Origin: Thelephora terrestris
Taxonomy: Eukaryota > Basidiomycota > Agaricomycetes > Thelephorales > Thelephoraceae
NCBI GenBank assembly: GCA_015956445.1
Contig: WIUZ02000001.1
Coordinates: 2,604,001 to 2,668,000, forward strand
Length of the DNA: 64,000 nt
Direction: 5' to 3'
Below, piece by piece: positions 1 through 40,694 of this stretch. Made by a program: the position numbers and the translations under genes. The notes below the pieces were generated by a model. That model searched no databases. It had not been told where the DNA came from and worked only from the letters and a program-made list of their open reading frames with translations. Every line of letters begins with the position of its first letter. Position 1 is the stretch's first letter.

Positions 1-246
1 GAACTGTCTACGGCCGTCGACGCCATGCGGACCCGGAACGGGATAGGGGGCTTCAGCGTACAGTCACGTTTCCAGAATAAGAAATCGATGTGCGTGGGAA
101 TTCCGAATTGTGAGATCCGCGACGCGCGCTTAGACGCCCAGGGCCAGGGTCACGGGATGTGGATATGACGAGCGGCAGAGACACTCGCAGACTACTTGAT
201 ACATACGAAAAAAAACATACAGAACCTAATGTAAGATATGCAGGCA
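1..246. other. 3' flank of SNW1, no gene seen
   Basis: Short stretch between the window edge and the SNW1 stop codon. It holds only short open frames without recognisable similarity. It is probably the SNW1 3' untranslated region plus intergenic DNA. Confidence 0.4.
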
Positions 247-2278
247 TTATTGCTCACGCTCCGATGCCTTGTCCATTTGCTGTCGTTTCCGTGTGCCACC
301 CCTGCGAAATGGAGGAATCAGTTGGTGGAAAGAAACGATCGCAAGAGCCACGTACACCTCCGTGTCCAAACCCCTTTTCCTACCACTCTTGGCCTCATCC
401 AAGAACTTGTCCAGGCCGAACACATCTCCGGTATCCTTTTCGAACTGCACTGGTCCCTCCCGTACCTCTTGCTCGTTAGCACCCTCAAACCCAACCTGGG
501 CCCGTCCTAGGCCAAACCTATCATTATCCAGGGCCCGAGAGATGCCCTCTTCTGTGCCACCTCCGTAAGACTCGTCGTTTCCTTCAGTAATGTTACCCCT
601 GGCCTTGTAGATGGCGGCGGCGGCGGAAGAACCATGGAATAAAGGACGATCGTAGAGGTTGTAGGACTCGTCGTCAGCGAAGTTGTTTGAGAGGCTCTCC
701 TGGTTGAAGAGCCGAGAATCCAACATCGACTCTTTCGACATCGTCGGCTTGGCCAGACCCAGGGCGATCTTCTCAGAAATGTCACGATTCTGCTGACGAG
801 CGAGCATCTTCGCCCGTTGTTCAGCTCCCATGTTACTCATCCTCATCTCACGCTCACGTTCCCTCCTCTTCTCTCTCCTCATCTCGTCACGAAGCTTGGC
901 AGCTTCCTCCTCCTCCTCCTCATCGTCTCTTCCCTCCTCACGGTGTGAGGCCTCGGAACCAGATTCACTGTCACTTCCATAATCAGCAAGCCCGGTCTTC
1001 ATAGCAGCGTGACCCTGTGCCGTCGCCACGGCAGAGTGTTTTGGAGGAGCAACTCCGGAACGCTCCTCCCGAGCGCGTTGGGCTAACACCCTAAGGTTTT
1101 CTTCTTTTTGGGCTTTCTCCTTTTCTGCGAGCTTCTGTTGCATCAGGTTCCGCTGTCTGACTTCCTCTCGCGCGTGTCTGTCAGCGATGTACAAGGCTTC
1201 GGAGAACTTAGCAAAATTGTCGTTGATGTGAATCTAGAAGGGGAAAGAAGGTTAGCTTGAACGAATAAAGTAAATGCGATGCCTCACATCTTGGAGACCG
1301 CGTCCATCTGCCGCCAGACGTTTGTCGAGAGGGATGGTATAACCCTTGTTGTTCTTCCAGTTGGAGATACAGGGCGGAATCATCCATTCCTTCTGCTCCT
1401 GGGCAGTGGCTTTGCGTGGAGGGCTGTGAAGAATGGGAGGTGGTGGACTGGGAGGTCCGCGAGGGACCTTTTTGTGCTTGAAGCGAGGAGGTTCCAGAGG
1501 ATCCTCCACTACCTCGGACATTTTGATGATCCTTTGCTTCAAACCGTTTCCGCCACCCTGTTGACCAGGAGTGTACCGAATGAATGTCGTCTTCCCTTGG
1601 CTGTCAGGGACATGCTTTGGTTGTGCTGCCTTGATTTTCCCGTTGGTAATTTTCTCGAGAGCGGCCTTAGTTTTCTCAGCCGTTGCAGCAACCTCTTCTT
1701 CTGAAGGACGTTCCATTGTCCGGTCTGTGTCGGTAAGGTCTTTGCGGTATGCGAGCGGAACGAGGTCTTTAAACTGCGACTGAACTATTTTGCCGTCTCG
1801 TTGGCCTTGTTGAGCAATCGCGTCGTAACGAACGTTTCCTTCAGAGTCAACTTGTAGTGCAAGCGTGTTCCCTGCGGCAGTCTTCCAGTGAATCGTTAGT
1901 TACAACTCGGAGAGTCCGCGCAAACAAACCGCTCTTACCTTCTTCCTGCCAAGATCCAGCGGGTACTGAGCGATATGACATTCTGGGTAGGCACCACCAT
2001 CACCTTCAAAGCCACCAATTAGTTGCCGTTTCAGACCCAATGAACATCATATCACGCACCAAAATCATCTGGAGTTGAGGGTTTCCACCCGGCTCGCTGT
2101 CCGTAAGGAGGGATGGGATTCCGTGTAATTAAAGATTGGGAAGGGTGAGAAGGAGTTTCGTCGACATCATCTTCTATGGTGACTGAGTGCACCGGGGTCG
2201 GAAGGAGCCTGAAGAAAAGCAATTAAAGGTAACATCGCAAAGAGAACGAGCGTAAACTCACGCAGCGAGGGCAGCCAT
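247..2278 (-). CDS. SNW1: SNW/SKIP-domain splicing factor (PRP45/SNW1)
   Basis: Homologue of SKIP/Prp45, a spliceosome component of the Prp19-associated complex and a transcription coregulator acting in the nucleus. The start MAALAALLPTPVHS is split after 17 coding bases by a 53-nt intron (2209-2261). The central exon (about 1252-1716) carries the SNW signature, seen as CISNWKNNKGYTIPLDKRLA, preceded by the RYTPGQQG and IKMSEVVEDPLEPPRFKHKK blocks. The last large exon (from about 1194 down) is the charged helical tail (ADRHAREEVRQRN, then Glu-rich and Lys/Arg-rich stretches) ending in the conserved GPVQFEKDTGDVFGLDKFL. Near the 3' end a 54-nt GTACGT..CGCAG stretch could be a last intron; its length is a multiple of three, so the frame stays open either way. 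It is divergent from NEDD1 with a 184-bp spacer. Family assignment is secure; inner exon edges are approximate. Confidence 0.95.
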
Positions 2279-2462
2279 TAGAGAGAGGGGCAAGTGGTAA
2301 CCCTGGAGCTAGGATGAGCGTGACTGTCGGTGACAAACCGCGGCAGTGTGGCTTCTGCCGGGGTCGTGGTCCCGCGAAGCACGTGATGCGACGCGTTGAA
2401 CATTCAACTCGTCGCGGCCTTCCATTTGACATTCTCCCCCGACACCGAACCCGCAACGGACA
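2279..2462. promoter_or_regulatory. Divergent promoter SNW1 / NEDD1
   Basis: 184 bases separate the two start codons on opposite strands, so both core promoters and both 5' leaders must lie here or overlap the genes. No clear TATA box was seen. A shared bidirectional promoter is an inference from spacing only. Confidence 0.5.
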
Positions 2463-4859
2463 ATGACAACGCTCGCCGTCGCGACAACAGAGCACTTGCT
2501 GCTTCCGGCAACAACGTTTCTCAAACGCACGTCGTCTCTTTCGTCTTCAAATCCCAAAATCTCAATACCAAGACCGCTGGCGGGGACGTGGAGTTCCGAT
2601 AACTCGACGCTTTTCCTGGTATTTACCGATGGTATCCGCAAGTACAGCAACGGGGGTACTACGGGGGAGATTGTCTTTTCTTCTGATGAGGAAGAGCTGC
2701 AGGGATGCATCGTTGCAAAAGACAACGGGGCTATTATCAGTGCCTTGTCAAACAGAATCGCCGTCTTGGAGCCCGCTCCACTTTCTAGCGACTACACCAT
2801 TGCCAGAACAATTGACGTCCACACATTTCCAGTAACTTCCCTTGCGATCTCAAACGACGGCGCCGCTCTTGCTTCCACTTCCCAAACCACGGTTTATATC
2901 CACAATCTCGAAAGTGCCTCCCACACAGCGTTGCGCGGGCTACCTCAGTCATCAGAAGAACCCTCACTGTGTACCTTCTCTCCGCACTCCCGGTCAAAAC
3001 TAATTGTTGGGTCGGGCCAGGTGCTCTACGTCTACGACATAAATAGACCCTCCAGCCCCACAAAAACCATTCCGCTTGGAAGTAGCGCCAATGGGGATGT
3101 TGTTTCACTGGCATGCAGTCCATACAGCAAGACCCTCGTGGCTGTTGCTTGCGAGGAGGGAACCGTGCACCTCGTCGATCTTGAAAAAGAGAAAGGGTTC
3201 GAGTGATCGTTTGCCAAGATATACGGCAGTGCTGATTCCGGTCGATAGGCCTTTCAAGATGGTAGACGTAAAGACCCGGATAACGTCACTGGTCTTCTCT
3301 CCTGAGGGTGCAGCTATGTATGTCGGGACTGACGGCGGAAGTCTCTTGGTAATCGACCTGCGCTCACTGGAGAAACCACCCAAGTCTATCTCTGCTAGTA
3401 GGATCGGCAGTCGTGTCGAATGCCTCGTAGCTCAGGTTCGTTTTTTGTCGAATTCGAAACCAGGGCCCCTCTGATTCATATGTCAAGGCAAAGTCATTGA
3501 CTCCCACCTCTGAGGCCTCATCCAAGCAAAATATACGAAAGCCAATAACACAACAGGAGAAAGGTACGAGAGCGTCTCCACAACGCCGGCTACCATCTTC
3601 CCACCCACTTCCCAAAAAATCACCCGTTCCTACCTTGTCCGCCAAATTCAAGGAGTCACCGGTCCCGACCCCGGTTCGTAAGCGCACCGTCTCTGGGGTT
3701 GTTCGTAGCCCAAGTGTCAGATCACCCCCGGTATTACGGAGGTCAGCATCTACTTTATCGAACGCACCCTCTTCAAGCAAAACCGCTCCATCCAAACCGA
3801 AGGTGTTTTCACCGCCACCTCGAAAACCACCAGGTACTGCGACCACAACCAAGGCCACGACGAAGCCCAGTACGCCCCAGATTGCCTACCAAAAGGATCA
3901 GTGCTGACCTTCTTGCAGATTCTAAAACTGACCCCCAGAAGGAATTAGGGAGGGTGACTAAGACCTTGACGAAAGCAGCTTCGAAGTCCCCTCTCCTACC
4001 CAAGGCGCGTCTCACGACTGAGCCCACGAGACGGGTTGTCTCTACAAGCGCGACAGATACCAAAGTTACCTCCCGCAGACAACTCTCTACGGGACCTTCC
4101 ATCTCAACAGCTACGACCCGGAAACCCAAGTCTCCCTCCTTCTCTTTATCCTCTTCGGGGAAGCAATCCGGCCGCTTATCGGCTTCCACGTCCTCATCTT
4201 CGAAGCCGCGCACAACTACGGCTTCCTCCTCGCGGAAGTCTACCACCCCATCGACCTCACCTGAACCACATACCCCTACCTTACCACTCAAGAGTCTGGG
4301 ATTCGGGTCGGCTTTCAGCCTACAGTCCACTGATGATGAGGGGGAAGATTGGGACGCCGATATCAAGACCAAACAACCTGCTCAACGGCAGGTTGGGTTT
4401 GGTGGTCTCAGCCCTACAGAAGAAGGGAAGATCGAGGAACTCGATGACCAAAGGGACATCGACAACAAGGCGTCCAGTGCGTCGTCTCGAAAAAAGGAGA
4501 AGACTCTACAAGTCACACCAGCCCGACCTGGTGTGCGACGACAATCTGCAGCGTGGTCTCCCGTACCATCGCCCCTGCGTCACGGATTAGAAGACATGCA
4601 GCACTCGGGGGGTGCCCCTTCGTCTGTTACGAACGTTCACAATATGCTTAACCAAATTATGCGAGATGTGATGTATGATTACCAGGAGGATATGCGGACG
4701 GAGTTGGTTGGTATGCATCTAGATATGGTCAGGATGGGGAGGAATTGGAAAAGGGACATGAAGGAAACTATGGACACGTATGCGAAGGATTTGAGAGAGC
4801 TGAGGGAAGAAAATAGGCTGCTGAGAGAGGAGAATGAGAGGTTGAAGCGAGGATATTGA
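2463..4859 (+). CDS. NEDD1: NEDD1-like WD40 gamma-tubulin-ring recruiting protein
   Basis: NEDD1/GCP-WD proteins recruit the gamma-tubulin ring complex to spindle poles and microtubules. Four inferred exons (2463-3196, 3249-3435, 3488-3833, 3919-4859) join in frame to about 735 residues. The first half is a WD40-type propeller (for example VTSLAISNDGAALAST, VVSLACSPYSKTLVAVAC, ITSLVFSPEGAAMYVGTDGG). The middle is Ser/Pro/Thr/Lys-rich and disordered, as in NEDD1. The C-terminus is the conserved helical gamma-tubulin-binding part (NMLNQIMRDVMYDYQEDMR) ending in a leucine-rich coiled coil. The apparent change of frame near 3197 is resolved by a 52-nt GTTCGA..GATAG intron. It is convergent with RPA1. 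The name rests on domain order and the C-terminal helix pattern. Confidence 0.88.
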
Positions 4860-5311
4860 GTTTTGTCTTGTAGTACCGTAGTTACTTATGCCCACGGTTT
4901 CGTCGAGGCCTGGTTGGGCAGGTGCAACCCGCCCAGAGCCCCTCCCACGCGATTTATCATCAGCAAATTGGGAAAAGTCCGACAGTCGAATATATAGCCC
5001 TATGAAAGTGGTAGGGTAAGCTATAGCCTTATAATGCATTACATAGAACGGCGCTAAGGTCATCTGGGAAGCTTGTAATGGCTTACAACACATTATAACG
5101 GGTTACAAGCCCTTGTATGGGATATGCCTCGATCAGCAGACTTTTCGCAACTTGCTGATGATGTTATCCGCTATACCTATATGCACATCATCTGGGGAGA
5201 TACCGTATTCTGTGGTAACCCGACTTGAAATGGACTGCCATGTGAAGATGTACATGTCATTAGTTGCAGCAAGCGGGTGATGTTACACGAGAAAGATTTC
5301 CCAGGAAACTA
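4860..5311. other. Convergent 3' region of NEDD1 and RPA1
   Basis: About 450 bases between two stop codons on opposite strands. AT-rich stretches around 5030-5110 carry short related and partly inverted motifs (ATTACAT, CTTGTAATGG, CTTACAA, GGTTACAAG) that may form imperfect hairpins near the 3' ends. No gene is seen. Confidence 0.4.
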
Positions 5312-8300
5312 CTAATCAGCCCAATTCGTCTTGATAATATCCCTCAAATGAGCCGTTTCTTCCCTGTAGTTCAAGGGGAGGATCTTCGAGATTCCGTATC
5401 GTACTTTCGATTGACCGTTGTATGTGTCGAGTTTCGCACGACAGGTAAAGTTGAAAGTGGAGTATTCTGACTTGGATGAGATTGCGGTATACCTGTCAGC
5501 GTTGGTGTTCTGGCAAACATCATTCAATAAATGCTGATCATTGGGCTGTTCAACACACGAACCTTGATTTCCATGAGTTCATCTGCGGACATGTTGAAGA
5601 CAGCCAGGCCGACGTCATTAAAACCCTGTAACCAAGCTTGCCCCGTGTGATCAGAGACCACCATGGAGATAGTGTACCTTACATGAACATGAGTTGAGGT
5701 CCTAGGATTAGGTCACAAGCAATGCACCTGTACTCTGGCTCCTCCCAGGTTTTTCCGCATTTTTCGCAGTTCCAGCCACCCACGGTTTCCACAACTTTCT
5801 TTCTACACGATTGCTTGGGACACGCGGGATAGGCTGGATTATCGCCCCTGACCCGCAAGATAGTCCCACGGCACGAGAACATGATCTCGGCCCCCTCCGC
5901 GATCTGCAGATTCGTCAGGAAATCTTCAATGGTTCGCATCTGAGCTCCGTTCAACGTGGCGGCTCCTCCAGATACCGAGCCCGCACTAGAGTTCGCGGCG
6001 AAGCTTTGGTTGACACCAACGGAATCGTACCATCCCCGAAGGACGTGGGCGTCGGGAATGTTGGGATTGATCGTCACGGTACTACCGCCAATCATAGATA
6101 GAGTGCGTCCTACACAGCGGACAGAAATGAGTATTGGCACGAGAATCAGAACACAATTGCGGCCCACCCCGGAACTCGTTGATTCTCACCCCCTTGAACG
6201 CGATGACAGGATGGCTACCATCATCTTCGTATGTCTCTGCCTGTTTTCCCCATAGAGTGAGCCTGATCGATGAATTCGAGCGATCAACCAAGGTGAGGTC
6301 CCGTTTCATAATCTATACTCCGTTTATCAGTTAGCCTGAAGCGAAGTGAAGAGCAGAGTCTCGCTCACCGTCCTGTTGTCCTTGGTTAAGATTGTGGAGA
6401 CTTGCCCAACTTCGCTGGCTATCGCGATCACGTCTGGAAGGTGGGTCATTTAAATACAGTGAAATTACAAGGGGAAAATGGGCGACTACCACAAGTCGAA
6501 TTCACCGGCTTGTTGATGAGATCATCCAGTTTCACAAAGCCATTCGTGATCTTGGGCACCTCACTGTCGTCTGTGCACTGTGACCTTTTGTCAATCCTCT
6601 ACTGGTGACTGACGTGTAGGATCATCACCTCTTCAATCTTAGTGTTCTCCCCTAGAGTAAGTTCGAAGTCGCTCGCACCGTCGGCGAACTTCCTCTTTGA
6701 AACTTTTACCCTCGCCTTTGAGAGATAGTAAACCTTCCCATCTTCTAATTTGTAGTAGAGTTGGTCAACGACCGCGTCGAAGCCAACTCCACGCATTTCC
6801 CCGGTTTCGTCCGCGAGGGTGAAGTTGAAAAATCTCCCTTCGGCGTGTGATTTCGACCAGGTCTTGATTTCTGACTTTTGGGTGACACGAGCCTTGATCG
6901 TCCAGTTGTTCGAATATGGGTTTAGCTCTCCAATCGGCAGAGTTGGTCGGCCTGGCTTAGGAGGTGCCGTTCGGGGTTCCGAAGGTTCCGCGGTGTTTAG
7001 TGGATTGGGGGTCGTTCCCTCTGGACTCAGAGTGCATGGGGTAGGGTCTCCGATCCTCCCAGTTTCTTTGACAAGGATTTCAAGACCAAGGATAATCATG
7101 ATGCTGTTCGTTCCAAGGAACGTGTTCAGAATTCGCACGAGGCGTATGGTTGAAGGATAGCATACCGCCGATCCTGAACCGTGTGGGTTGTAAAACGCTC
7201 GACGCGAACGATGGAACCTATCCCCGCACGCCTGTCCTGAAACAACGCAGTTAGCTGGGGGGCCATCATTACCTGAAGGATGTGTGTTCCGTCGGAGATC
7301 ATTGCCCGCCACCGCACTGGACCGTTGGCTTCGATGGCCTTTGTCTGAACTATTTGCACGATGGGTGAGGTCGCCCAGACGGGGTCTTGAGCACTAGTGG
7401 ACGACACGAGCTGGTTGAGGAACCCGGTGGTGAGCTGAGGTATGTCCTCATTCGTGGTCGTTGTAGCCCACGGAGTAGGGTTTCCGATTTTCCCTGCTTC
7501 TTTGACCAAGACTTCGAGATCGAGGATGGTCGCGATGCTGCTCATTCAAAAAAGATTGCGTTCAGAATCCGTACGACGCGCACGGTTGGAGATGGCATAC
7601 CGTTTACCCTGAATGGTGCTCATGGCAAAACGCTGTACGCGAACGATGGAACCTTTCCCCACAAGTCCGTTCTCAAACAATGTGTGGAGCCGAGTGTCCG
7701 CCATCGCCTGGAGAACGTGCCCTCCATCGGAGATCACGATACGCCACCACGGCTTTTGACCGTCGGTTTCGATGGCCTTTACATGAGCAATTTGCACAAC
7801 AGGGGAGGTCGCCCGAACATGGTCTGGTGTGCTATCTAAGGATACGAGCTGACCGCAAAACCCCGTAGTGAGCTGAGGTACATCCGCGTCCGTGGTCGTT
7901 ATAGCGCGCCGAGTAGGGTTTCCGATCTGTTCTGCTTCTTTGACCAAGACCTCGAGATCAAGTATAATCACGATGCTGATCATTCCAAAAAGTGGCGTTT
8001 AACATTCGCACGGCGGGTATGGTGTTGAACTGGGTAGTGACTTGCCGCTTGCCCATAATCACTTTCGCTGTGAGACGTCGAAGGCGAACGATGGAACCGT
8101 CTCCCGCATGCCCGTTTTCAAACAGGGTGCTAAGCTCAGTGACCATCGCTGGCAGGGCTTGTGTCCCGTCGGAGATAAAGGTTCGCCATAGTTTTTGGCT
8201 GTTGTGTTCGATAACCTTCGGTTGGAGAATTTGCACAATGGGGGAGGTGAACCGGACGAGATCTTGAGGCTCAGTGGACGCGATCTGGTCGCAGACACCA

Positions 8301-8353
8301 GCGGTGAGCCGAGGTATGTCCTCACGCATGTTCGTTATCAGTCTCGGTTCCAT
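5312..8353 (-). CDS. RPA1: Replication protein A large subunit with three tandem RPA70N domains
   Basis: Large subunit of the RPA single-stranded-DNA-binding trimer, used in nuclear replication, repair and recombination. Ten inferred exons (8353-8046, 7975-7601, 7537-7166, 7103-6629, 6577-6490, 6433-6369, 6312-6168, 6109-5728, 5677-5563, 5509-5312) sum to 2523 bases, about 840 residues. The family is usually near 610-620. The excess is two extra N-terminal modules: three RPA70N (DBD-F) units of about 123 residues, each running from [D][IV]P[QR]LT.G through SDG..LQ.M and GSIVR..RF to ILDLEVLVKE...IGNPT. Then follow DBD-A (NPYSNNWTIKARVTQKSEIK), DBD-B (from VPKITNGFVKLDDL, then KRDLTLVDRS and LTLWG) and DBD-C with its zinc site (CPKQSCRKKV, WNCEKCGKTW). 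The C-terminus is RYGISKILPLNYREE. The frame is continuous through all splices. The start at 8353 has a second in-frame ATG 24 bases later. Confidence 0.93.
7040..8330 (-). repeat. Tandem triplication of the RPA70N-coding unit
   Basis: Three direct repeats with a period of about 430-440 bp inside RPA1: unit 1 about 7895-8330, unit 2 about 7460-7895, unit 3 about 7040-7460. Each unit has the same exon pattern, with an intron inserted at the same codon (Arg of GKR/DRR) just before the ILDLEVL strand. The introns are 7976-8045, 7538-7600 and 7104-7165. The protein copies are clearly diverged, so this is not a recent assembly artefact. Confidence 0.9.
7976..8045 (-). other. GC-AG intron in RPA1 unit 1
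   Basis: The 70-nt intron of the first RPA70N unit begins GCAAGT, where the equivalent introns of units 2 and 3 begin GTATGC. It ends GATCAG. Reading frame (GKR then IVIILDLEVL) and intron position match the sister units exactly. This makes a non-canonical GC donor the simplest reading. Confidence 0.75.
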
Positions 8354-9473
8354 CCGGCCAGATCATCCCAGATTGGATTTTGTGGGAAAGTAGCCGTCAC
8401 TGACATCACCGCTTTTCTTTTTCTCCCACATCTGCTACACCTTGGGGTAGAGCAGTAATCTGGAAATCGTATGGCCACAAGGTAGATGCACGGGAGCTTC
8501 CGTACCCCAACTTCGAAGGAGATTGAAACCTCTGGCCAAACGCCACGACTGTATACACCCACCAGTTGCATGCCCCGAGTCTCTCCTCGGTCGGGCGTCC
8601 TGAGCGGTCTCATCTTCGACCCTCTCGCCGACATAGCTTCTTACATTTCCCTTCGGCCAGGACTGACAGCATCAGCCCTCGTCATGTTCGTAGAACCGTG
8701 TGGAGTGTAGTGCCCTACGCAAACGTAGACAGGGGCACTATCAGCCTTAGGATATTCTCCAACGTTGGTGCTGTCCTCCCGGGTGGCAAGGAGACCGCGA
8801 CCGGGGTTTGTCGGCGGATGTGTCTTTGGGTCTGGTCATTTAGAAACTGTTGCGACCCAAGCCAAAAAGCGCGACGCCGAGAACAATGGATAGTCATGAT
8901 GGTCAACCAGGGCAACTGGCGTTTCCCTTCTCGTGACTGGGTCAAGACCACCAATCCTCCCTGCTTACAGGGGTAGTGTAAGTAGTCTGTTTATTGGTGT
9001 GGCTGCAGGGTGGAGCCGCTGCATCAAGGGACGGGGTGGCTCCCTGCCCTATAGAGCGATAACCCTGGAGCCTATGTCGCGAACCGGAGACATTCAAAGT
9101 CGTAGTGATGCCGTCCCGCTTTATTTGTTTGTTTAAAAGATAGGGGTTGCCTAAAATTCCCGTACGGGAGTTCGCAGCTGGGATTCTGTTGGGACTGCCC
9201 GTCGCGCTACGTAGGATTTTAGTATGTCCCACGTAAACAAACAGCGTTTCCGTGCCCACTACAAAGCTTAGGTGTGAACGTCAACCCTTGCCAGACCTCC
9301 CACGGAAGTGTTCCATCCCGCCAAATAAGGCACGGCAGGCGGAGACCCGCCGACTCCCGGAGAGTGTCACACGAGACGGTAGCTCCGGAGCGAGGTCACA
9401 TGATCGAAAATCCCTTCCGAACGTGCTTCCGTGACGGAATTGGGCTGAAGACATTAACGACGTGGCCGAGCTA
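8354..9473. other. Intergenic 1.1 kb between RPA1 and TIM54
   Basis: Divergent spacer longer than most here. It contains only short open frames in several phases without recognisable domains, so no gene is called. It must include the 5' regions of RPA1 and TIM54. A short spliced gene cannot be excluded. Confidence 0.3.
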
Positions 9474-10925
9474 ATGTCCTCCAATGGCGCAGCTCCCACC
9501 GCCCCCCAGGTCCAGGAATCTGGCATAAAGGCTGCCCTGAAGTACACCGGTATCCCACAGTCGTGGCTTTCCAAGCGACCAAAGCTACCCTCTCGGAATT
9601 GGCTCATCTTCATCGGCATTACTTCTACCGTCACGGGCTATTATTTGTACGACAGACGACAGTGTAAAACGATTCGTCAGGCCTATGTGGACAAAGTGAA
9701 GCACCTTGCAGAGGTTCCGTTGCATAGTCACGACTATCCGAGGAAAGTCACGGTGTATGGTGCAAAGTGGCCGGACGATGAAGATTCGGACCGAGCCATC
9801 AAGTACTTCAGAAAATACGTGAAGGTGCGTGCATGTCCTTCTATTGCCTCCAGAATTTGGTGCTCATGCCTGCTTGCCTAGCCGATCCTTGTTGCTGCCG
9901 CTGTGGACTTTGACATGGTCATTGGGAAACGCTACGGTGATATATCTTCCCGTGTCGCGGACGAAATCCGGTCTCGGAGGCGTCTGGAGGCAGGCATAGA
10001 TCCTCCAAAGCGGAATATTATTGCCAAGGCTGGCAACCATTCACCAGAGGCCGAACGTCGACGGGAACTAGCAGGTGGTATCGTCCTGGTCGGTAGACCG
10101 ACTTTCAAAGAGTTTATGGAAGGCTTACGGCGTGGGTGGTCTGATGGACTCGAAAAAGTCGACAGGGAGGACAAGCTCGCACGCGAACTGGAATCAGACG
10201 GCAAGTTTGACGAGTTAGAGGAGCCATCATCTCCAGTAGACCCCGAGAGTGTCGGTGATGGTGAACCGCTCCCCACAAAATCGCGCCTCCCCCCTTCCAC
10301 CGGTCTTTTTAAACCCCCATATCTTCGTCCCTTACCGGTAGACAAGGGGTCCTCCTCTTCGTCATCCCCGATTCCAGAGCAGTTCAATATACCCCCAGCT
10401 TCTATTCCCCAACAACCACCGATCCTCTTCGTCCCCTTTACGAACTACCTCGGGTTCCTTCAAGTCCCCCACATGATCTGGGACTTCTTCAATCAGCGAC
10501 AAAAAGTGCTCTCTGGGGCTCAATGCGCGTACAAATTGATTGAGTCCCAGACTCGTCCATTTGAACCTACAACGGATCTCGACTGCGGACTCGACGCAGA
10601 ACACTACTACAAATCCTCCATGAAAAAATACGCAGAGAGCATCGAAAAAATTCGGACGGGGTACTACAAGGCTCTTCCCGACAAACTCAAGACCGCTAGA
10701 GACCTCGCCAGGGGTAACCGAGAACCCACTAAGGACGAGACCAACTACCCTCCACCCACTGAGGTAGAGCTGCGCGCGGAGAGGTTAAAGAAGGAGCTTA
10801 GATGGAGGAGCGATGTTTCTGGTTGGGATATTATCAAACCGGAAGCACCGGTTGCCTTTGACGAGAGGTTCAACGGTGCACTGGAGGTTTTCGCTGATCC
10901 ACTGGACAAGGAGACAGAATTATAG
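9474..10925 (+). CDS. TIM54: Mitochondrial inner-membrane translocase subunit TIM54
   Basis: Tim54 is a subunit of the TIM22 carrier translocase of the mitochondrial inner membrane. Two exons (9474-9824 and 9882-10925; 57-nt intron 9825-9881) give 464 residues, close to family size. Residues about 15-60 hold the signature GIPQSWLSKRPKLPSRNWLI followed by one hydrophobic segment (FIGITSTVTGYYLYDRR), the membrane anchor. Next come the conserved KVTVYGAKWPDDE, the ILVAAAVDFDMVIGKRYGDI block, and a large intermembrane-space part with an acidic and proline-rich insert. The C-terminal part carries RRLEAGID, GRPTFKEFMEGLRRGW and, near the end, GWDIIKPEAPVAFDERF. The ATG at 9474 is the first in frame. 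It is convergent with MER3, with 77 bases between stops. Confidence 0.93.
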
Positions 10926-11002
10926 TTATTCACACAATCAGTGGTACACTACACCGTCCAACTAATCTTTCATCCGATGAGAATTCCCTTCATAGTGCAT
11001 AA

Positions 11003-14000
11003 TTACAACTTATCCACAATTTGCACCGCACCGCTTGCGATCCAAGCTTCGAACTCCGCCAAGGGGTCGTCCTCGTCGATAATGGCGTCTCCAGCGTGAC
11101 CCTTGGTTGTGTCCACCATGGAATCTATACCAGCATAGATTTCCTCCAGATTGTCGTGTTCAGCGCCAAATTCCATTCCTAGATCAGCCGTAGCAACAAC
11201 CCCGACCTTGGGACCGGGACTAGGAGACCGGATCACGAAGTCACCAGTACCGACAACATCGTCCCTCTTCTCATCGCTACTTCCAAGAAACAGAGGAGGA
11301 GATCTTGATTTGAAGGTTGAATCAATAGCCTGTATTGAAACCCAGGTCAAGATCCCATCCCAGTGCAATGACCGTCGGGGAAGAACCCACTTCCTGAGCG
11401 GATTCCGGACGCACAGGCCCAAACCTATGCTGGTGAAAATCGCCCTCCCAATCACTAACCCTTCTCATCCGTTTGAAGGATCGGTCAGGAGGGGGAAGTG
11501 GATCGCGCAAGCGCTTCCGAGACGCTCGAGGGACATCAGAAGGAGACGAAATATCTTCGGCATCATCGATAGTCAAGTCCACAGCCACAGTAAAATTATC
11601 AGCATCCAGAGCAGAGCTAGGAGCGGCGCGAATCAAGTCATCCATATCGTCAGAACCGAAGTCAGGGGAGGGAGAACGAATGCTGTCAATGATCTTGAGG
11701 GTAGATGGTCCACGCGTGACTGCGGGTTGTTTGATATTGTCGTCAGAGAATTTGACTTCCGTGATTTTCCCTCGGCCAGGCGATTTGAAAACACGCGACA
11801 AAGAGGAGCTGACACCAGAAGTACCCGGGTGAGAGGCGGTAAGGACGGTGTTCTTGCGAGTCTCGGGGAGCAGAGTATCCAGGACATTCAGAACTGATCT
11901 TCCAGAGGTTGGTTGAATCACACGAGAGAATCCGTCCTTAGTCGAAGCCTTCGTTTTTCCGGGCTCAGCTCTTGCTTTCGGTGCTGCCTTTGACTTTGGA
12001 GGCGGTGGTGGGTTCTTCAGCCCTTCCCGACAGCTACCACCTTTTGAATGGGCGTGAAGGAACGACAGACACAAACGCACCAGATATGCCTGCAATTGTT
12101 CCTATCCTTGCACGTGTGGTTGCACCTAAAACAGGGTGAGGGTCCGGAGTCTGGGTTGAGGAAGAAGGCTTGCTTGTAATTCCCATTGGTCAACTGCTCC
12201 GGCCTCCATTCCTGGTGTGATGTTTTGACATTCATCTCTGTTAAATTGGACCTACCCGAGCCAGTAGGGGGGAGCTTCTCCCTATGAGGGGCAGGATTGT
12301 AACTGGAGAAGGAAGTTCCAGGAAGGTCATCAGGGTCCAGTACTCCTTGCGGCTCTCCTTGTTCCGAGCCGAGCCCACCATATTCCTCAAAGTCACGACG
12401 AGGAGCTGGGGGCTTTGTGTTTAAGGTAGGGTATTCATTTCCAGGAAGATCGGGTCTGAAACATTGCGAGAGGGCATCCCCAGCGATCGTTTCCTACAAC
12501 GAGTCAATGGCAACAAAAAAACTGGTAAGTCCTGCCCTTACCGAACCGATAATCGTGACCACGGACTGGCTCGGTTTCGACAATTCCGCAAACACCGTGA
12601 AAGTTTTAGCGTCTTTGAGTGAGTGGGTCCTACACAGTGCATCAGAGTTGGTTGGGAGCTAGCCCATGTGAGCGAGCGCACGGTATTCTCCGGTAGTCAA
12701 CGAAGTTGTTGTCAGACGTGACGGTAAGGATCGAAGTCATCTCGAACGCGCGAAATTTGCCTTTCTTCTGTTGTGGCTTCAACAAATCCGCACAGAGTCC
12801 GCACTTTATCTCAAGGACAACTTCCACAGGACCCTGCCCTCGATAGGGCTTGACTGACTTCTTCGCGATGTGAAGAGAATACTGTGGAAACCTCGCTGCT
12901 TGATCAAGGATGATGTGGCCGAATGGGGTGCGGCGGTTAAGAAGCTACGTCACCAGAGTGAGAGGCCACGATAGTGGAAAGAGTTCGGAAACATACAATT
13001 TCGATTCGCTCAGGCGGCTGTTTACGGAGGGAGGCGAAGGACGTAATCCCGTGCTCTGCGAGTACCTGTCCGGCCAATGAGATCCCGTCGTTGGAAGTAC
13101 GAGCAGCCTCTTACCTTTATCCTAAGGGACCCAGCTGATAGTTTGGTGATCAGGGCAAGGACTAGATGCATTACTTACGATTTATCACCAATCTGGTCTA
13201 TCTGTCGCAAAACAATCGGGCGGTCTTCCCAAGCCTTGGCGGATAAGATCCGAAGACTGCCATTTTCGTGAGTCATCGTATTTAAAAGTCAAACACATAC
13301 AGGAACACACCTTTCAAGTCCATACCTGATCAGCCCTCCCGATTGTCGGATGATCGCCACCTCAACCAGAGCTGGGGGAGATTCGCATCTAATTCAAGTA
13401 AACATAATACCCAGGATTCATACCTCGAGAAATCCTTCCGATGTGACGGAATATCGTGAACGCTTCCAACGTGAGTTGACTGTCGGAACCCTTAAACTCA
13501 GGCGCACTAAGAGATATCCCTCCCAGTACAGCCTACACGGGTGTCCCTTTTAGTGTCCCGTATAATGGGTGGTAGACAAACCTGGATCAGGAGGAAGACC
13601 TTGTCTTGTATGGTCTCTACCTTCTTCAAGGTATATCGGATTTCTTCATGAGTCCGAAGGCGGTTCAAGACCTATAAAGAGTCAGGGTGTTTACGGACTC
13701 TAGCCACAAGCATTGCAAACCTGCTTCTCGCCACTCCGGATTTTGAGTTCCAAAAACCTTTCAATGGTTATAGAGCCACAACCCGATGAACGAAAAAAGG
13801 CTCACTCATCTGAAGCTGACAGTGTCTCTAGCTAACGATCCGTTGAGTTTCGACGAAGCTGATCCACAGGATATCGCTTACGATCTGTCGAACCCCCGCG
13901 TTGAGGTCAAGGTCCATGATCGTTTTCATCTTTGCAGAATTAGCTGTTTCGGAGATAGCGCGAGCCACTTGACTGACCGTGTTCTGCTTGATGTAGAACT

Positions 14001-30912: not shown

Positions 30913-32399
30913 TTAATCGTTTCCTCGCTGATTCTTCCTCCCTCCACCTTCCGCAAAGCTTTTCGTTTTCCTCTCCTGCTTTCCCACCTCGAGTGAAGAA
31001 TCTGTTTTCCAGTCTTGGTCGGAGGAATGCAGATCCATGACCGAGGGACTTCTGCGTTTCACAATGGCTTTGTCAAACGCCTTGATGATCTCCGTCCCGA
31101 CCTCTTCACGGTCCATACCTGTCGCTACCAGTTCCGCGGCGTCGTTAAACTCCCTGCGGAGGATTGCGCGAACCGCCGCGCGTCGGAGTTGCAGGTCGAG
31201 CAAAGTGAGCTTGGGACCGCCTGGTTTCAATGCAAACGGGGTTAGGTCTTCATAGAAGAGTGTGGTGGAGGTCGTAAGGTTCGGAGCACCAACGCTAGGC
31301 TTGATAGGAGTGAGGATAGGGACTGTTCCCGATGCGGGGGTCTTCTGTGCGGCTTTCGCCGTCTGCGTCGTCGACGTTCTGCTCGCGGATGTGGATAGGT
31401 CCCGCAGGTCAAGCCGACGACCGTCAGCGTTCTCCGCCCTCGTTGGAAAGCTCACCATTTCCCTCACTACACTTGGACCACTGTCTTTGATGTCAACCTT
31501 AATTTTCTCGTTTTTCTTCTTTACCTCAGGAAAGACTCGAATCCCAAAGTGCATGGGGCGGAAGCTGCATCTTTGTCTGCGGTTGCGGCAAGGCTCGCAC
31601 ATCACGATGGTACCCTCCTTGCCTTTGCACCATATAGGGATGCAAGTCGTTTGGGGCGATTTTTTAGCGGAGCACGCGCCGCACACCTAGGGGACGATGA
31701 GCTTCACCATATCCACCTCTGGCGTATGCCACCCACCAATCCCTCTGCCTGAGGAACTACCTTCGTGTCCAGCCTATCCCCCTCTGTCATTTTCATCGAG
31801 CTCAAGTTCATTCCCATTGGACAAAAAGACCTCGTGTCTGTGTGTGGCTTGCTCACGTCCTTCGTCGATGCTTGGGGCGGTTGCGGAGTCGCACTTCCTT
31901 CAGCACTCGCAGTGTTGGCTGTCTCGGGTGTTCCTTTGGGGCTATCAACCTGGAAAGCCATATCCTCGGGCAGGCGGCGTCGTTTAACGCAAGTGTTCGC
32001 ATATTCTGCAATGATCTTGAATGGCGTTAGATGAAATGCCAGGCAAAGCTCTCTGTGCCTCGTCTGCGCCCTTGCGCGGTGAGTCTTCCGTACGCTGGAG
32101 CTCTTGAGTACGTTACTTACCAGCCAAGCCGATAGGTGCTGAGCCCATGGCTCCGCAAGCGCCGTCTCTTCTTTCAGACGCTCTTCCATGCTCTTGAGCC
32201 GCCAGATTGCCAGGACAGACTTCCACACGACGTCCTCGCATCCAGGAGAGCCTACGAGAAGACCCCGCAGGTCCACTTTTGCCCATCCGGACTCGCGATC
32301 GGGGGTTTCCTCGTCCCTCTCCACCTCTTGGAACGCCTCAAACGGTGTGAGTCCGTTGGGGCCCTGCATGGGTGTCCACTCCAGTGAAAAGAAGTCCAT
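30913..32399 (-). CDS. Family A copy 1: Cys-rich protein of unknown function
   Basis: Not recognised as a named family; defined here by comparison with its four neighbours. Three exons. Module N (exon 1): MDFFSLEWTPMQGPNGLTPF, then WKSVLAIWRLKSMEERLKEE and AEPWAQHLSAWLV. Exon 2 starts TRHRELCLAFHLTPFKIIAE after a short intron beginning GTAAGT and continues as a Pro/Ser/Thr-rich linker. Exon 3 (from about 31690) opens with module Z, CGACSAKKSPQTTCIPIWC and MCEPCRNRRQRCSF: spacing C-x2-C-x9-C-x4-C-x9-C-x2-C-x6-C. Its final CxxCRNRRQRC resembles the basic half of a fungal Zn2Cys6 cluster. Module C follows: LFYEDLTPFALKPGG, LTLLDLQLRRAAVRAILRRE, IGTEIIKAFDKAIV-type helices, and a basic tail. Zinc or DNA binding is inferred only. 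Confidence 0.8.
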
Positions 32400-32761
32400 A
32401 GAGAATGGGTAAACAGTTGAGGGTGACAAAGGGAGATGTGGCGGCGGAAGCTTTTCGTTCTGTCTCGCGCAATTACCGAATTGAGTTGCCTCACCTCAGC
32501 CGCATGTTAACTTTGTGTTCTCGTGCAGCCATGGCCGGTATGTCGAAGCGCTTGTATTTCGCGTGACTTATGTACGCCCAACATGGGTTCAAACCTCGTT
32601 AGATACTGTTCGTATTTGAGGTACATTCATAACAGAAGTGTATGAGAAGGGAACGCGCGGTTGATACACGACCAAAATGAGGCCGCCAAATGGGGTAGGT
32701 GCGCGAGGCAGCAAAACCTTCCGCAGGCACGTCATCACTCTTCGCTTTAAGTTCTCTCCCA
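32400..32761. promoter_or_regulatory. Divergent spacer between family A copies 1 and 2
   Basis: 362 bases between start codons of two paralogues on opposite strands. It presumably contains both promoters. No clear TATA box or shared repeat was seen. Confidence 0.4.
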
Positions 32762-33943
32762 ATGGACCTATCACTTGACTGGACTCCAACGAAAGGCCCG
32801 AACGGCCTGGCGCCATTTGAGGCGTTCCGATTGGTCGAGAACGATGATGAAACTCCAAGTCGCGGAAGCGGATGGTTGAAAACGGACGTGCGAGAGCTTG
32901 TCGCCCACTCTCCCGCTTCCGAAGATTTGATCTGGAAATCGGTGCTGGCAATTTGGCGGCTGAAAAGTATGGAGGGTCGCCTGAAGGAAGAGGAAAAAGA
33001 GCTCGCGGAGCCGTGGGCTGAGCACATGTCTGCTTGGCTGGTGAGTAATCTGCGTACCGTTAAACAGACACGGGATTGACTGCGTGAGGGAGTATAGACA
33101 AGGCATGAGGATCTTTGCCACGCTTTTCATCTTGAGCCGCTACAAATAATCACAGAGTGCGCGAAGGATTGCGTTGCAGCAGGACATATCCCCAACCGCA
33201 TGGTTGCGCATTCCCGAGACCCGGAAATCATTCCTTTCCCGTGCGCGACCAAAAGCGATGAGAATGGTTGGAGTCCGCGATCGTCATGGCACGAAAGAAA
33301 GGTGGAGAAGACCAATGAGGAACAGACGCCATTCCCGCCACAGGTGGACGAGGGGAACAGCACTGGACTTGCGCTAAACCGACCAGGCTCGTCAAAGAGG
33401 AAGAAGGGGCTGCGCAAGGGGCAAAGCACCAAGCGATTGGAGGGGACGTACGCCGATTCAAAACTGCAGATCTTTGCAGGAGCGGAAAGGATGGAGGAGG
33501 AAAAAGGAGAGCTTGGGAGGATGGGGGAGAGTCTTTTAACGAGGGTGGGGAAGGTCAAAGGTCCTCTGCCTACGCGTTGGGAGAGGGAAGAAGAGAGTTT
33601 GGCAAGTGGAACGCCTCTCGCTTCCACTTCCAGTGCTCCCAACGTTGGTTCTGTGAGCACCATGGCGTCTGCAACCCTCTTCTACAGCGACCTTGCTCGT
33701 TTCGGGGCTGGGCCATCGCCTCGAGAGATGTCTCTTCCGGACCTTGAGCTCCGATATAGAGACATTGCCAACGCTCTGCAAAGAGAGCGGGAGGACGCTG
33801 AAGAGCTTTTCACAATGGCAGTGGATCGCCGGCGGACGGCAACAAAAATCCTTGCAGCGCTGAATGAAGCCATAGTGCAACATGGGGGTCGCGCGATCCA
33901 TCTCACGTGGGCGTTTGACGAAGAGACGGATGATGCGCAGTAG
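32762..33943 (+). CDS. Family A copy 2, lacking the Cys-rich module
   Basis: Exon 1 (MDLSLDWTPTKGPNGLAPFE, WKSVLAIWRLKSMEGRLKEE, AEPWAEHMSAWL) matches module N of copy 1 very closely. The intron runs from GTGAGT near 33042 to GAGTATAG. Exon 2 then opens TRHEDLCHAFHLEPLQIITE, and continues without another intron as one open frame to 33943. Where its paralogues have module Z, this copy has a charged linker rich in Lys, Glu and Arg with no Cys cluster. Module C is present: ATLFYSDLARFGAGPSPREM, LPDLELRYRDIANALQRERE, RRTATKILAALNEAIVQHGG. Two exons instead of three. This looks like a clean loss of the exon-3 start and Cys module rather than decay, since the frame is intact. Confidence 0.75.
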
Positions 33944-34359
33944 TTACCGGTGTGGTGAGTGCAAAGGAACTCGTTTCAGGGGAGGGTTGTATCCAGGCAG
34001 ATGGTTCTTGCAGATCCTGCGCGACTCCGGCGCAGCGATAGAACCTATTGGGGCTGTGCAGAAGAGGTAGGAGGCGTGGCGCGAGTTGGACGTGAGTGTG
34101 AGCTTGACGATCCGGGTAGGATGTACTGGAATGTAGTGTATAACAGTACGATCTTTTTTGACAGTAATTGTTATGGTGCGCGTTCATTGTTTACAGAATC
34201 CTTCCCTCTGTTTCCGAAACATAAGCCAAGTGTAATTGTCCACAGCGTCCTCGCAAAAGGTTACATAGAATGACAAAGCATGTTTACGCATATCGATGTT
34301 TCTCACAGGCGACAAGAGATATCCTGGGTGTTACACATGGCTAAAGACCCCTTTCTCCC
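33944..34359. other. Convergent spacer family A copies 2 and 3
   Basis: About 415 bases, AT-richer than the flanks, between two convergent stops. No gene seen. Confidence 0.35.
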
Positions 34360-36283
34360 TCACCCGTCCACCGAACCTTTCCCAGGGCTGTAGTCCGAAT
34401 CGCTCGTGTCACTGTCTTCATCGTAACTTTCTCCCGACAGATTATCTGCTTTGCATACAAGCTCCCAAGGTTCGTACAATGCACTGCCCCCCTCATCCAC
34501 AATTGCCTCGTTTAGCGCAGCGAGGATGTCTGCCCCAATCAGCCGACGATCCGTAGAGGTTTCCACAGCCTCTGAAACGGCGTTCCACTCCCTGAGCAAC
34601 ACTGCGCGAACTTCGTTCCGTAGTAGTTGGAGTTCGAAAATGGAATGGTCCTCGTCCGCCGCCGCTGCCGCAAACGGAAGGAGGTCGGCATAGAAGATGG
34701 TTACCGAAGATGAACTGGCTGGATCAGCCCCAGCAGCCTGACTGGTAGCTGCAGCAGGAACCGCGGTTGAATCCAATGGCTCATGCAATCCTCCGGTGGC
34801 TTTCGTGTGCGACCTCGTAGATAGCAATGAACCCGTGTTTTGGAGTGGGTGCAGCATGTTGGTTGCCCTCCTTGTCCTTGTTTGGCATACATTCCCCCTT
34901 CTTCCGATCGCCGAATCTGTTGTCCCTCTCTCCTTGCGTTTGGATTGCGCACCTTTCTTTCCTTTCTCCTTCTCAACCTGCAACAGTGTCACCTGTGGCC
35001 ACACCCCCACCCCAAAATCTTCTCCCTCGAAGGTGCATTTCTTGTTGCTGCGGTGGCAAGCTACACACTTTATCTTTGCACGGTCCTCACCCGCGTACCA
35101 GGTGGGAATACACCTCTCCCGAAGTTTCCGTCGTTCTGAACATCGTTCACACTTCTGTTGACTTCTTCAGCTTCTCTTCTACAAGATGGCGAGCTAAATA
35201 CTCACCGCTCCCACCACTTGCGGAACAATTTGTGCATCCACTGCGTCTCCTTCCGCCATTGTTAAACCCCCCAGCTTGATCCCCGCAGCGAACAACCCCC
35301 TCTCCCTCTCTATCCCAACAGTCGGATTGATTCCCGTGTGCGAAACAGTGGTTGTAGCCGTCCGTAGTCTCTTGGTGGAGGTGGATGGTCCATCCGGTTT
35401 GCTTGGTGAGCTGGAAAGCCCTCGCTTCGCCTTTTTGCTCGTCTTCGCAGGTATGGTTCTGTTTTGCGGTGGCTCGGGCCTCGGCGTCTGCACTACACCC
35501 GGGATCAAGATGGCTTTCTCCTTACCCTTGTGAGAGCTCTCTGCGAGCATCGTCGCATCACCTTCCGCCATCTCTACATCTTTGTCGTATTCTGTGGTTT
35601 GCGGCGTCGAAAGTCTAGAGGACATACTCTTGGCCGCTGGCGTGAGCATGTTGTCCATGTCGCTCAGCTGTGGAGGGTTCTCTAAACATGCATTTCCCTC
35701 GTCGGAGCTTTTCGCAGCGGGGTCCGCGCCTTCGTCGACGGTTTGAACATTATCCCTACCATCTGGGACTTGAGTAGGCAAAGTCTTGGACGACTTTGCA
35801 TTCGAATGGAGGGCTCCGGTATCCTCCACTTCCCCAAAGTCGGGAACCATGTGCGCCTGCAAAAGCTTCTGTTTCACAAACGCATGCGCCAGTTCGGTAA
35901 TGAAATCGAATGGCATGAAGTTGAACAGGCGGCACAGATCCCTGTGCCTAGTCTACTTGCTCGTGCCGTGAGATCTTCTTGCGTTTGCCTCCAGTCATCT
36001 CACTCACCAACCAAGCAGACATGTGCTCAGCCCACGGCTTTCTCAGCTCCACTTCTACACGCAAACGAGTCGCCATCCTCCTGAGTCTCCAGATCGCCAG
36101 CACAGATCTCCAGACGACTTCAAGTGTACAGGGAGCGTTGGAAACAAGCGCTTTGACGTTCCGCTTTGACCACCTGCTCGGGACGTGGGGAGCCTCGGCG
36201 TCCTCTTCTGCTAAAATGAATTCCTCAAACGGCGCAATCCCATTTTGGCCCTCAGTAGGGCTCCAGCTCAACGAAACGTCCAT
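34360..36283 (-). CDS. Family A copy 3: Cys-rich protein, one Cys replaced
   Basis: Three-exon paralogue of copy 1. Module N: MDVSLSWSPTEGQNGIAPFE, VVWRSVLAIWRLRRMATRLR, KPWAEHMSAWLVS. Exon 2 (to about 35195) begins with the RHRDLC-type strip and MPFDFITELAHAFVKQKLLQ, then a long acidic, disordered linker with basic patches (KTSKKAKRG, KRLRTATT) that may be nuclear signals. Module Z (about 35000-35165): CERCSERRKLRERCIPTWY and IKCVACHRSNKKCTF. The fourth Cys of copies 1 and 5 is Tyr here, leaving six conserved Cys. Module C: VTIFYADLLPFAAAAADEDH, LQLLRNEVRAVLLREWNAVS, IGADILAALNEAIVDEGGS. The tail is strongly acidic (Asp/Ser). Function unknown. Confidence 0.78.
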
Positions 36284-36579
36284 GCGGAATTGAGGGAGAG
36301 TTGAAAAAGACGACGGATCACGTGGCTAGAAAGACCGTTCGTCGATTCACGTGCACCTCCCCGATTTGGGCGCCGCGTTTGCGGCGCCGATGTGTTGTTT
36401 TACGAGCAGTTCTCTCCTTTTCTCACCAACCGACAGACCGTTCTCTTTTAAATATGTATATATTGTGTGTCCCTCAAGCGACGCCTACGGTCTTCGCAAC
36501 TCATCGTTGATGTGTGGAAGCTGGTAAATTGATCGAGCGCGTGTGAACCTGACGCAAGGCTGAAGTCCGTGGTCCAAAT

Positions 36580-37495
36580 TTGGTAGTGGCCAGAGATCAA
36601 ATGAAATCGTCCGCCTGCAACATCATCACCCCTGGCACTCGACCCTCCTGCAAGATGGAACAGGATTTGTCATTGGCGAACAGGAGAGTCTCCAACATCT
36701 TTTATGGATGTTCAGAGGCAGAAATACGCGGGCTGGTGGCTGGGACATCTGGATGGGAAAAAGACCTTTGGGGATCCGGCGCGGTGATCCGCTTGCGGAA
36801 GAACATGGAGGAGCGTCTATACCAGGAGGAGGGAGTTGGAGAGCCGTGGGCTCACAAGGGACTTGTAGAGCCGTGGGCTCAAAACACGTGGGCTTGGGGC
36901 GTGAGTGGAGTCGTTGCGTTATAGCAGAGACGGAATTGATCAAGTGTGAGATCAGAGCAGGTGTATTGCGAGGAACCGGGAGAATCGCTCAGCGATGAAC
37001 AACAACGCGGAGGCGTCTCTACCTCTTCCCGGGTTAGCGGGAGTGACAGTGAGCCCTGGTGGTGAAGGCTCTGCGCAGCACGCAACAATCTTCCACGTTG
37101 ACCTCGCCAGTTTTGCGTTGCCAACAGATCCAGTGGTATCGTTGGCGCAACTGGAGCTCCGGCGCACGGAGCTCATGGCTCTCTTGCACAAAGAAGCGGA
37201 GGACGTTGGGAAGGTTGTCAGAAGACACGCCGAACGAATGGAAACGATGGAGCTGATTATCGCAAACTTAAGCCGGGCCATCTCGCAGCGTGAGGTCGCC
37301 CTAGCCCACCACATCCGCGAAGCTGAAGATGGAACAGAAATGTTGTGGGGAGAGGGTAGTGATCAGGACGTGGGTGTGGAAGATGTTGAAAGGGATGACG
37401 GAGGATTTCAAGATGTAGTGGAGGAAGAGCTGGATCTTGACCCGCTGTTCCAGTGGGGTATCAAGGCAGTGCACGTTGGTGTCTTTGGAAGCTAG
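36580..37495 (+). pseudogene. Family A copy 4, degenerate remnant
   Basis: A partial module N is seen at about 36720-36924 (EAEIRGLVAGTSGWEKDLW, IRLRKNMEERLYQEEG). Its end has a small internal duplication of the EPWA strip (GEPWAHKGLVEPWAQNTWAW). The start WTP..GPN block, the RHR..LC strip and the whole Cys module are not seen. Module C follows as a separate open frame from 36995: ATIFHVDLASFALPTDPVVS, LAQLELRRTELMALLHKEAE, LIIANLSRAIS, ending in an acidic tail at 37495. A short protein made from 36995 alone is possible. The remnant was either shortened by deletion or is a decaying copy. Confidence 0.6.
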
Positions 37496-37869
37496 CTGGG
37501 ATCCATATGCTGGGGTGAATAGATATAAGCAAGAGCCTTTGCGCGGAGTTGCTACCGCGACGAGAGGCATTGACCTTGTGTGAGGGCAGAGTGGCACAGC
37601 AGCAGCGCAACTTGATGTATATCGCCGCCCAACCTTCCTCAATGGACGCGCATTCGAACGGTGCGCGAGACGTGTGTAGACTCGTTGCGAGTGTGGGCTC
37701 GTTTGTGAGACAGAGTCTCCTCGAGTTACATCCCTTCTCTCACCCTTTCAAAATGCAATGAAGAGGTAAACCAATAGAAATTCAGAAAATATAGTTCATT
37801 TACGCGAGACAGCAGATATATAGATATGAACTTGTAATTATTGGCAAAAAAAACCTACGTTTCCTTCTC
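37496..37869. other. Spacer between family A copies 4 and 5
   Basis: About 370 bases between two convergent stops. AT-rich near 37760-37860. No gene seen. Confidence 0.35.
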
Positions 37870-40044: not shown

Positions 40045-40694
40045 GATGGGGAAGGGAGGCGAGCGTTGGGAACAAAGAAGATGGAGATGGCAGGGAAAGA
40101 GTTTTGTTTGTTTTTGCACTATTACCGTATTTGGACGCTTCGCGCCCTGGACGCCGCGTTGGGAACGAGTCGAAGGCTGGTATCTAGACTAGATATTACA
40201 GCTTCATGTCTGCACGCACGGTTACCTCCCTCCAATAGGCCCTATTCATGTAGGGAAGTGCACCCTTTTCGCTTTAACTTCCACCCTTCCCTCCATCACA
40301 CCCAAGCGCTCAATGCTTTCGGTGAGCTCGCCTCCACTATGTCTCACGTTGCTCAACGATAAAGTACCGTATGTTCCACACCTTAATAACGATGATCCTT
40401 GAGTCCACAACACCACAATTTATATTCGAGCACTTGAAATAGAGTGCTTGACTAGTTCAAAGATGTTTTGTTGTTGAGGCGTGAAACATATGGCCCAGTT
40501 TCAGTTCCATTCGTATCATCGAACGTGGAACCGTTGCTCCGCTATAAATTCCCGACCCTTCCTCCTATCACACCAATGCGCTCAACCTTTTCCGCGAGCT
40601 CACTCAACTATGTCTCATGTTGCTCGGCCATGAAATACCTGCTATAACGAAATTTTACGATCAGGCTCACTTTTTTTATAAACGCAAATAAAGC
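40045..40694. other. Intergenic DNA with a duplicated block
   Basis: Spacer between the start of family A copy 5 and the stop of the first F-box gene. Apart from the duplicated block described separately, no gene is seen. Confidence 0.4.
40265..40650. repeat. Direct duplication of an approximately 100-bp intergenic block
   Basis: Block one (about 40265-40372) and block two (about 40541-40650) share order and most bases: CCCTTCC-TCCATCACACC, GCGCTCAA, GAGCTC, ACTATGTCTCA-GTTGCTC, then AA-TACC. The second starts with a TATA-like CTATAAATTCCC. They are diverged, and may be old promoter duplication or remains of a small mobile element. Confidence 0.6.

Follow-up and report, generated by a model that had tools for sequence, protein, structure and literature searches.

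To our knowledge, described RPA1 proteins carry one RPA70N each. A locus on the minus strand of a 64,000-nucleotide stretch of Thelephora terrestris DNA (hereafter the window) was proposed in a preliminary description to encode an RPA1 with three of them, which raises the questions of whether this is one continuous gene, whether it provides the RPA1 of this fungus, and what three such domains in a single chain would do.

The spliced model of the locus (8353-5312, minus strand) comprises 840 codons plus a stop over ten exons, with no internal stops, in agreement with the coordinates, exon number, length of about 840 residues and whole-codon exon sum originally given for it. On the separate reading exons, three in-frame units match the Rep-A_N profile (PF04057) above its cut-off of 26.7 bits (Table 1), and in the spliced protein this profile reaches a total of 167.9 bits over three stretches, followed by PF01336, PF16900 and PF08646, each above its own cut-off, which bears out the proposed order of three RPA70N units ahead of DBD-A, -B and -C. 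Without any gene model, a DNA repeat of three copies spaced about 438 bp apart marks the same region, and the three intra-unit introns interrupt the identical codon in the identical phase (cg^...^c). Intron 1 is of the GC-AG type (GCAAGT), and the other eight are GT-AG. Pairwise, the units are identical at 60-65 of 114-116 residues, in line with the single gene model with three diverged units that had been put forward; the ending ILDLEVLVKE, ascribed to all three, is found in units 1 and 2, while unit 3 ends in ILGLEILVKE. The best solved relative of the three-unit protein is U. maydis RPA1 (4gnx_C, 482 bits, vs 397 bits for human). An assembly error behind the three units is unlikely because the units are so diverged and the window contains no N. 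We also rejected three separate small genes, as no stop lies between them, their introns are in register, and ACG replaces ATG at both junctions.

Table 1. Features of the three-unit RPA1 paralog. Positions are those of the window; limits of the RPA70N units were derived from the exon coordinates, and human residue numbers are given where a feature is named after them.
Feature	Residues	Positions	Strand	Evidence and remarks
Whole coding region, three-unit RPA1 paralog	840 aa	5312..8353	-	Ten exons; Pfam on the spliced protein
RPA70N unit 1	10-123	7915..8326	-	Rep-A_N 38.3 bits; contains intron 8045-7976 (GC-AG)
Linker between units 1 and 2	eight residues	7891..7914	-	Aligns with the start-codon context of the single-unit gene, ACG replacing ATG
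RPA70N unit 2	132-248	7477..7890	-	Rep-A_N 54.4 bits; contains intron 7600-7538
Linker between units 2 and 3	eight residues	7453..7476	-	Aligns with the start-codon context of the single-unit gene, ACG replacing ATG
RPA70N unit 3, canonical-like	257-372	7043..7452	-	Rep-A_N 53.1 bits; contains intron 7165-7104
DBD-A	419-499	6662..6904	-	PF01336 40.5 bits; F238 and F269 retained
DBD-A stretch with clustered changes (human 210-223)	432-445	6824..6865	-	7 of the 26 changes peculiar to this protein at conserved positions; permutation p 0.008
DBD-B	527-624	6066..6529	-	PF16900 101.3 bits; introns 6489-6434, 6368-6313 and 6167-6110; W361 and F386 retained
DBD-C and zinc ribbon	686-830	5345..5882	-	PF08646 152.8 bits; introns 5727-5678 and 5562-5510; zinc cysteines retained

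Across the assembly (40.6 Mb, 60 contigs), four Rep-A_N matches were found, three of them inside the window and a fourth at C1:2671210 (+), about 3.2 kb past the window's end, and in the six-frame search the matches to PF08646 (at least six) and PF16900 (at least two) were confined to the same two loci. The fourth match belongs to a plain RPA1 with one RPA70N (Rep-A_N 75.7 bits for the gene product), 582 aa and 8 exons (positions 3189-5324 of locus L005), which lies on the same contig as the three-unit gene, about 59 kb away and in inverted orientation, and whose seven introns coincide in place with introns of the latter. The intron matching the GC-AG intron 1 (8045-7976) reads GTAAGT in this single-unit gene. 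Because a normal RPA1 is present at this distance, the three-unit gene, which the preliminary description had treated as the RPA1 of the organism, is a paralog; both its anatomy and this paralogy can be read from the sequence with high confidence. Downstream, the similarity between the two genes stops with the stop codon; upstream, it reaches about 10 bases beyond the start of the single-unit gene. Window positions 1-14000 have no flanks in common with loci L005 and L006. One RPA2-like locus, in two adjacent pieces, was found in the genome, which suggests that the two RPA1 proteins share their trimer partners; the PF08784 profile gave no match.

The neighbours of the three-unit gene are what we take to be the end of a coiled-coil protein resembling NEDD1 (3549-4859, +) and a presumed TIM54-like gene in two frames (9435-10925, +), and the gene adjoining the single-unit RPA1 (L005 1396-2962, -) resembles the gene of the nuclear-envelope protein Brl1/Brr6. 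Further along the window, positions 30913-40188 carry a group of related open frames, located on either strand, in agreement with the DNA repeats there: frames with a cysteine cluster (e.g., 30913-31686, 34360-35166 and 37870-38673, minus strand) and frames with an RHRDLCR-like motif (e.g., 33098-33943 (+), 35194-35952 (-) and 38508-39761 (-)). Together they suggest that an uncharacterised family has expanded locally. A tandem repeat of 141 bp (39040-39515, 3.1 copies, 85% matches) is situated within the open frame 38508-39761 (-).

On balance, we favour the reading that the three-unit gene, a fast-evolving paralog of the single-unit RPA1, has specialised, and that of its recruitment domains one is canonical-like and two are altered. 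The likeliest rival, which we nevertheless consider rather unlikely, holds it to be a redundant duplicate on which selection has relaxed and which is heading to loss, the triplication being neutral and units 1 and 2 idle. Its rate of evolution fits both readings. In the shared core, U. maydis RPA1 has the same residue as the single-unit protein at 221 of 428 positions and as the three-unit protein at 181 of 430. When U. maydis serves as outgroup, 51 changes are unique to the three-unit copy vs 11 to the single-unit copy (p 2.8e-7); when human does, 31 vs 14 (p 0.016). By these counts, the three-unit gene is the faster-evolving copy and the single-unit gene the ordinary one. The former deviates at 26 of the 128 positions where the single-unit protein, U. 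maydis and human agree, and the latter at 6 of the 108 positions where the three-unit protein, U. maydis and human agree (a number calculated from the other counts). Within the RPA70N units, unique changes relative to the single-unit gene stand at 11:2, 11:1 and 11:2 with human as outgroup, a significant excess in the units of the three-unit gene; with yeast as outgroup they stand at 7:4, 7:5 and 6:5, which is not significant. The donor sites of the three-unit gene also look weaker, three of nine being without G at +5 vs none of seven in the single-unit gene (counted by eye), and R41 is missing from units 1 and 2. The donor sites, the GC-AG type of intron 1 and the lack of significance with yeast weigh against the favoured reading.

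Set against redundancy are the 840 codons that stay open with nine introns in place, and the substitution pattern. For the core of the two genes, dN/dS is 0.19 (bootstrap upper limit 0.26), among the three units it is 0.30, 0.46 and 0.41 (upper limits 0.48, 0.76 and 0.64), and the upper limits are below 0.8 in all seven comparisons; as pairwise values these are means over both lineages, compatible with a recent loss of function in the three-unit gene. In neutral simulations under a simple model, none of 500 copies was stop-free at each of the three distances (K 0.1, 0.2 and 0.4). The gene still looks constrained, bearing the mark of purifying selection. From dN/dS and the stop-free simulation, a dead pseudogene is unlikely, and recent decay would be compatible with both.

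The DNA-binding domains also speak against a redundant copy, in that the stacking aromatics (human F238, F269, W361 and F386) and the four zinc cysteines are identical (8/8) in the three-unit protein, the single-unit protein, U. maydis and human. Seven of the 26 changes peculiar to the three-unit protein at conserved positions (R210K, N214K, R216H, G217A, K220R, L221F and S223N) nevertheless cluster in 14 residues of DBD-A, human 210-223 (100,000 permutations, p 0.008). Apart from R210, this stretch is, we assume, situated near the DNA. R210 itself is listed in PMC4269926 among the residues crucial for DNA binding, and four further DBD-A residues given in that paper (R234, F238, F269 and E277) are retained. 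The altered stretch may confer weaker DNA binding on the three-unit protein, which would count against the favoured reading.

A second rival, quite unlikely in our judgement, grants that the three-unit protein is functional but holds its units to be equivalent, so that tripling would simply raise the avidity for one set of partners (checkpoint kinase adaptor, nuclease, helicase) with no division of labour. All three units exceed the Rep-A_N cut-off and retain R43, I33 and M57 of the groove, and in human crystals reported in PMC10479964 two RPA70N domains are spanned by peptides of the partners BLM, RMI1 and p53, an arrangement that its authors suggest may serve oligomeric assembly and increase avidity. 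R41 and R91 speak against equivalence. At human R31, R41, R43 and R91, mutation of which weakens the binding of several partners by human RPA70N (PMC10479964), the single-unit protein has R, R, R, R, unit 3 has K, R, R, R, unit 1 has K, L, R, K, and unit 2 has K, a residue other than R (aligned as P, next to an inserted residue), R, K. R41 and R91 are thus both retained in unit 3 only, and units 1 and 2 have lost R41 and carry K at R91; in yeast, too, these positions (R, K, L, R) are not those of human. Since the units do not have the same groove arginines, plain trivalency with three equivalent sites, one of the two outcomes first envisaged, is unlikely, and for the other, specialisation of the diverged units, there are signs in these unequal grooves. 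Each unit is moreover closer to the single-unit protein (72-74 of 114-116 residues) than to the other units, and therefore each has diverged in its own way. Net charge is -1, 0 and 0 for units 1, 2 and 3, -2 for the single-unit domain and +2 for the human fragment; no unit looks strongly basic overall, a point against the favoured reading, and overall charge does not tell them apart. One structure model was made, for exon 3, which encodes the final strand of unit 2 followed by the body of unit 3, from an alignment consisting of exons 1 and 2. Of its five versions (pLDDT 73.8, 54.1, 52.7, 51.6 and 35.1) the best alone is usable; its nine top PDB matches are all human RPA70N entries (TM 0.57-0.63), which supports an RPA70N fold and nothing beyond.

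The junctions between the units hold traces of how the array may have arisen. The start codon is preceded by a similar context in the single-unit gene (ACAACGACC ATG) and in unit 1 (ATAACGAAC ATG), and the context of the single-unit gene recurs at both inter-unit junctions, with ACG for ATG. Because of this replacement, the linkers are no start sites; each looks like a fusion of the linker that follows the domain with a former 5' leader that is now translated. We propose that the array originated by tandem duplication of a segment broken within the 5' leader on one side and within the linker after the domain on the other, whereby the leader would have become coding and the former ATG would have turned into ACG at both junctions. 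The order of the unit triplication and the duplication of the gene has no preferred solution: the unit tree is a star, the three unit groupings are favoured by 10, 9 and 9 quartet sites, units 2 and 3 group together with bootstrap values of 69 (nucleotide) and 52 (codon), and support in the protein tree is 27-48; dS is near 1, too saturated for dating. That the three-unit gene is ancestral and the single-unit gene derived by the loss of two units would suit this star and the endings (ILGLEIL common to the single-unit protein and unit 3, ILDLEVL common to units 1 and 2), but is very improbable given that the single-unit gene has the shortest branch, that it and unit 1 have ATG where the junctions have ACG, as if one unit had been copied together with its leader, and that the compared human and yeast chains have one such domain.

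Under the favoured reading of a specialised paralog, the three-unit protein would join RPA2 and RPA3 and sit on single-stranded DNA through DBD-A, -B and -C; of the grooves that it would offer on eight-residue linkers, that of unit 3 would be canonical-like and those of units 1 and 2 altered. In human RPA70N, the groove has weak affinity for short motifs of its partners (KD about 4, 17 and 18 uM for three peptides; PMC10479964), and the N domain of yeast RPA binds Ddc2 through its basic-hydrophobic groove (PMC13237216). Partners with several motifs could be gripped more tightly by the three-unit protein than by the single-unit one, or different partners could be held side by side, and the paralog might serve a subset of RPA work (repair, checkpoint or meiosis) while the single-unit protein does bulk replication. 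More tentatively, we picture a heterovalent RPA whose three non-equivalent grooves may hold different partners from repair or checkpoint pathways, or else a single partner by its several motifs.

With canonical RPA1 (RPA70, Rfa1; human, S. cerevisiae and U. maydis) the three-unit protein shares the domain order RPA70N, DBD-A, -B and -C, the aromatics and the zinc cysteines, and it differs in its three RPA70N, which short linkers join, and in altered residues within a conserved part of DBD-A. Eukaryotic RPA1 is described in PMC4731521 as DBD-F, A, B and C, and the plant groups A, B and C treated there likewise comprise duplicated, specialised RPA1 genes, the basic cleft of the N domain being lost in RPA1B. 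Unlike the protein found here, these paralogs, in the account of that paper, have one DBD-F each and are distinguished by cleft loss and C-terminal zinc fingers instead. The RPA1 expansion of the ciliate Oxytricha resembles the present pair in comprising several paralogs, 5 of 8 preferentially expressed at one developmental stage, but as presented in PMC5312943 it concerns the number of genes, whereas here RPA70N is repeated within one protein. Another parallel is basidiomycete Pot1, a fungal single-stranded DNA-binding protein with an extra N-terminal OB fold that has no appreciable DNA binding and is implicated in Rad51 binding (PMC9119445); according to that source this is a single fold, closer to that of animal Pot1 than to the N fold of RPA70, and no RPA70N array. 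A full-text search, covering titles, the openings of abstracts and few subscription papers, found no account of an RPA1 with several RPA70N. RPA1 paralogs and cleft loss were already known. Relatives sought in prokaryote and virus contig collections gave 6 and 2 pattern matches, none confirmed, a result uninformative on fungi.

The co-occurrence of a one-unit and a three-unit RPA1 in one genome offers a direct test of how the number and make-up of RPA70N affect checkpoint and repair recruitment, and the three-unit gene illustrates a simple route by which OB-fold arrays may grow, through a 5' leader turned linker. If the proposed heterovalency is true, the bridging between separate RPA70N domains seen in human crystals would, in this fungus, be built into a single chain.
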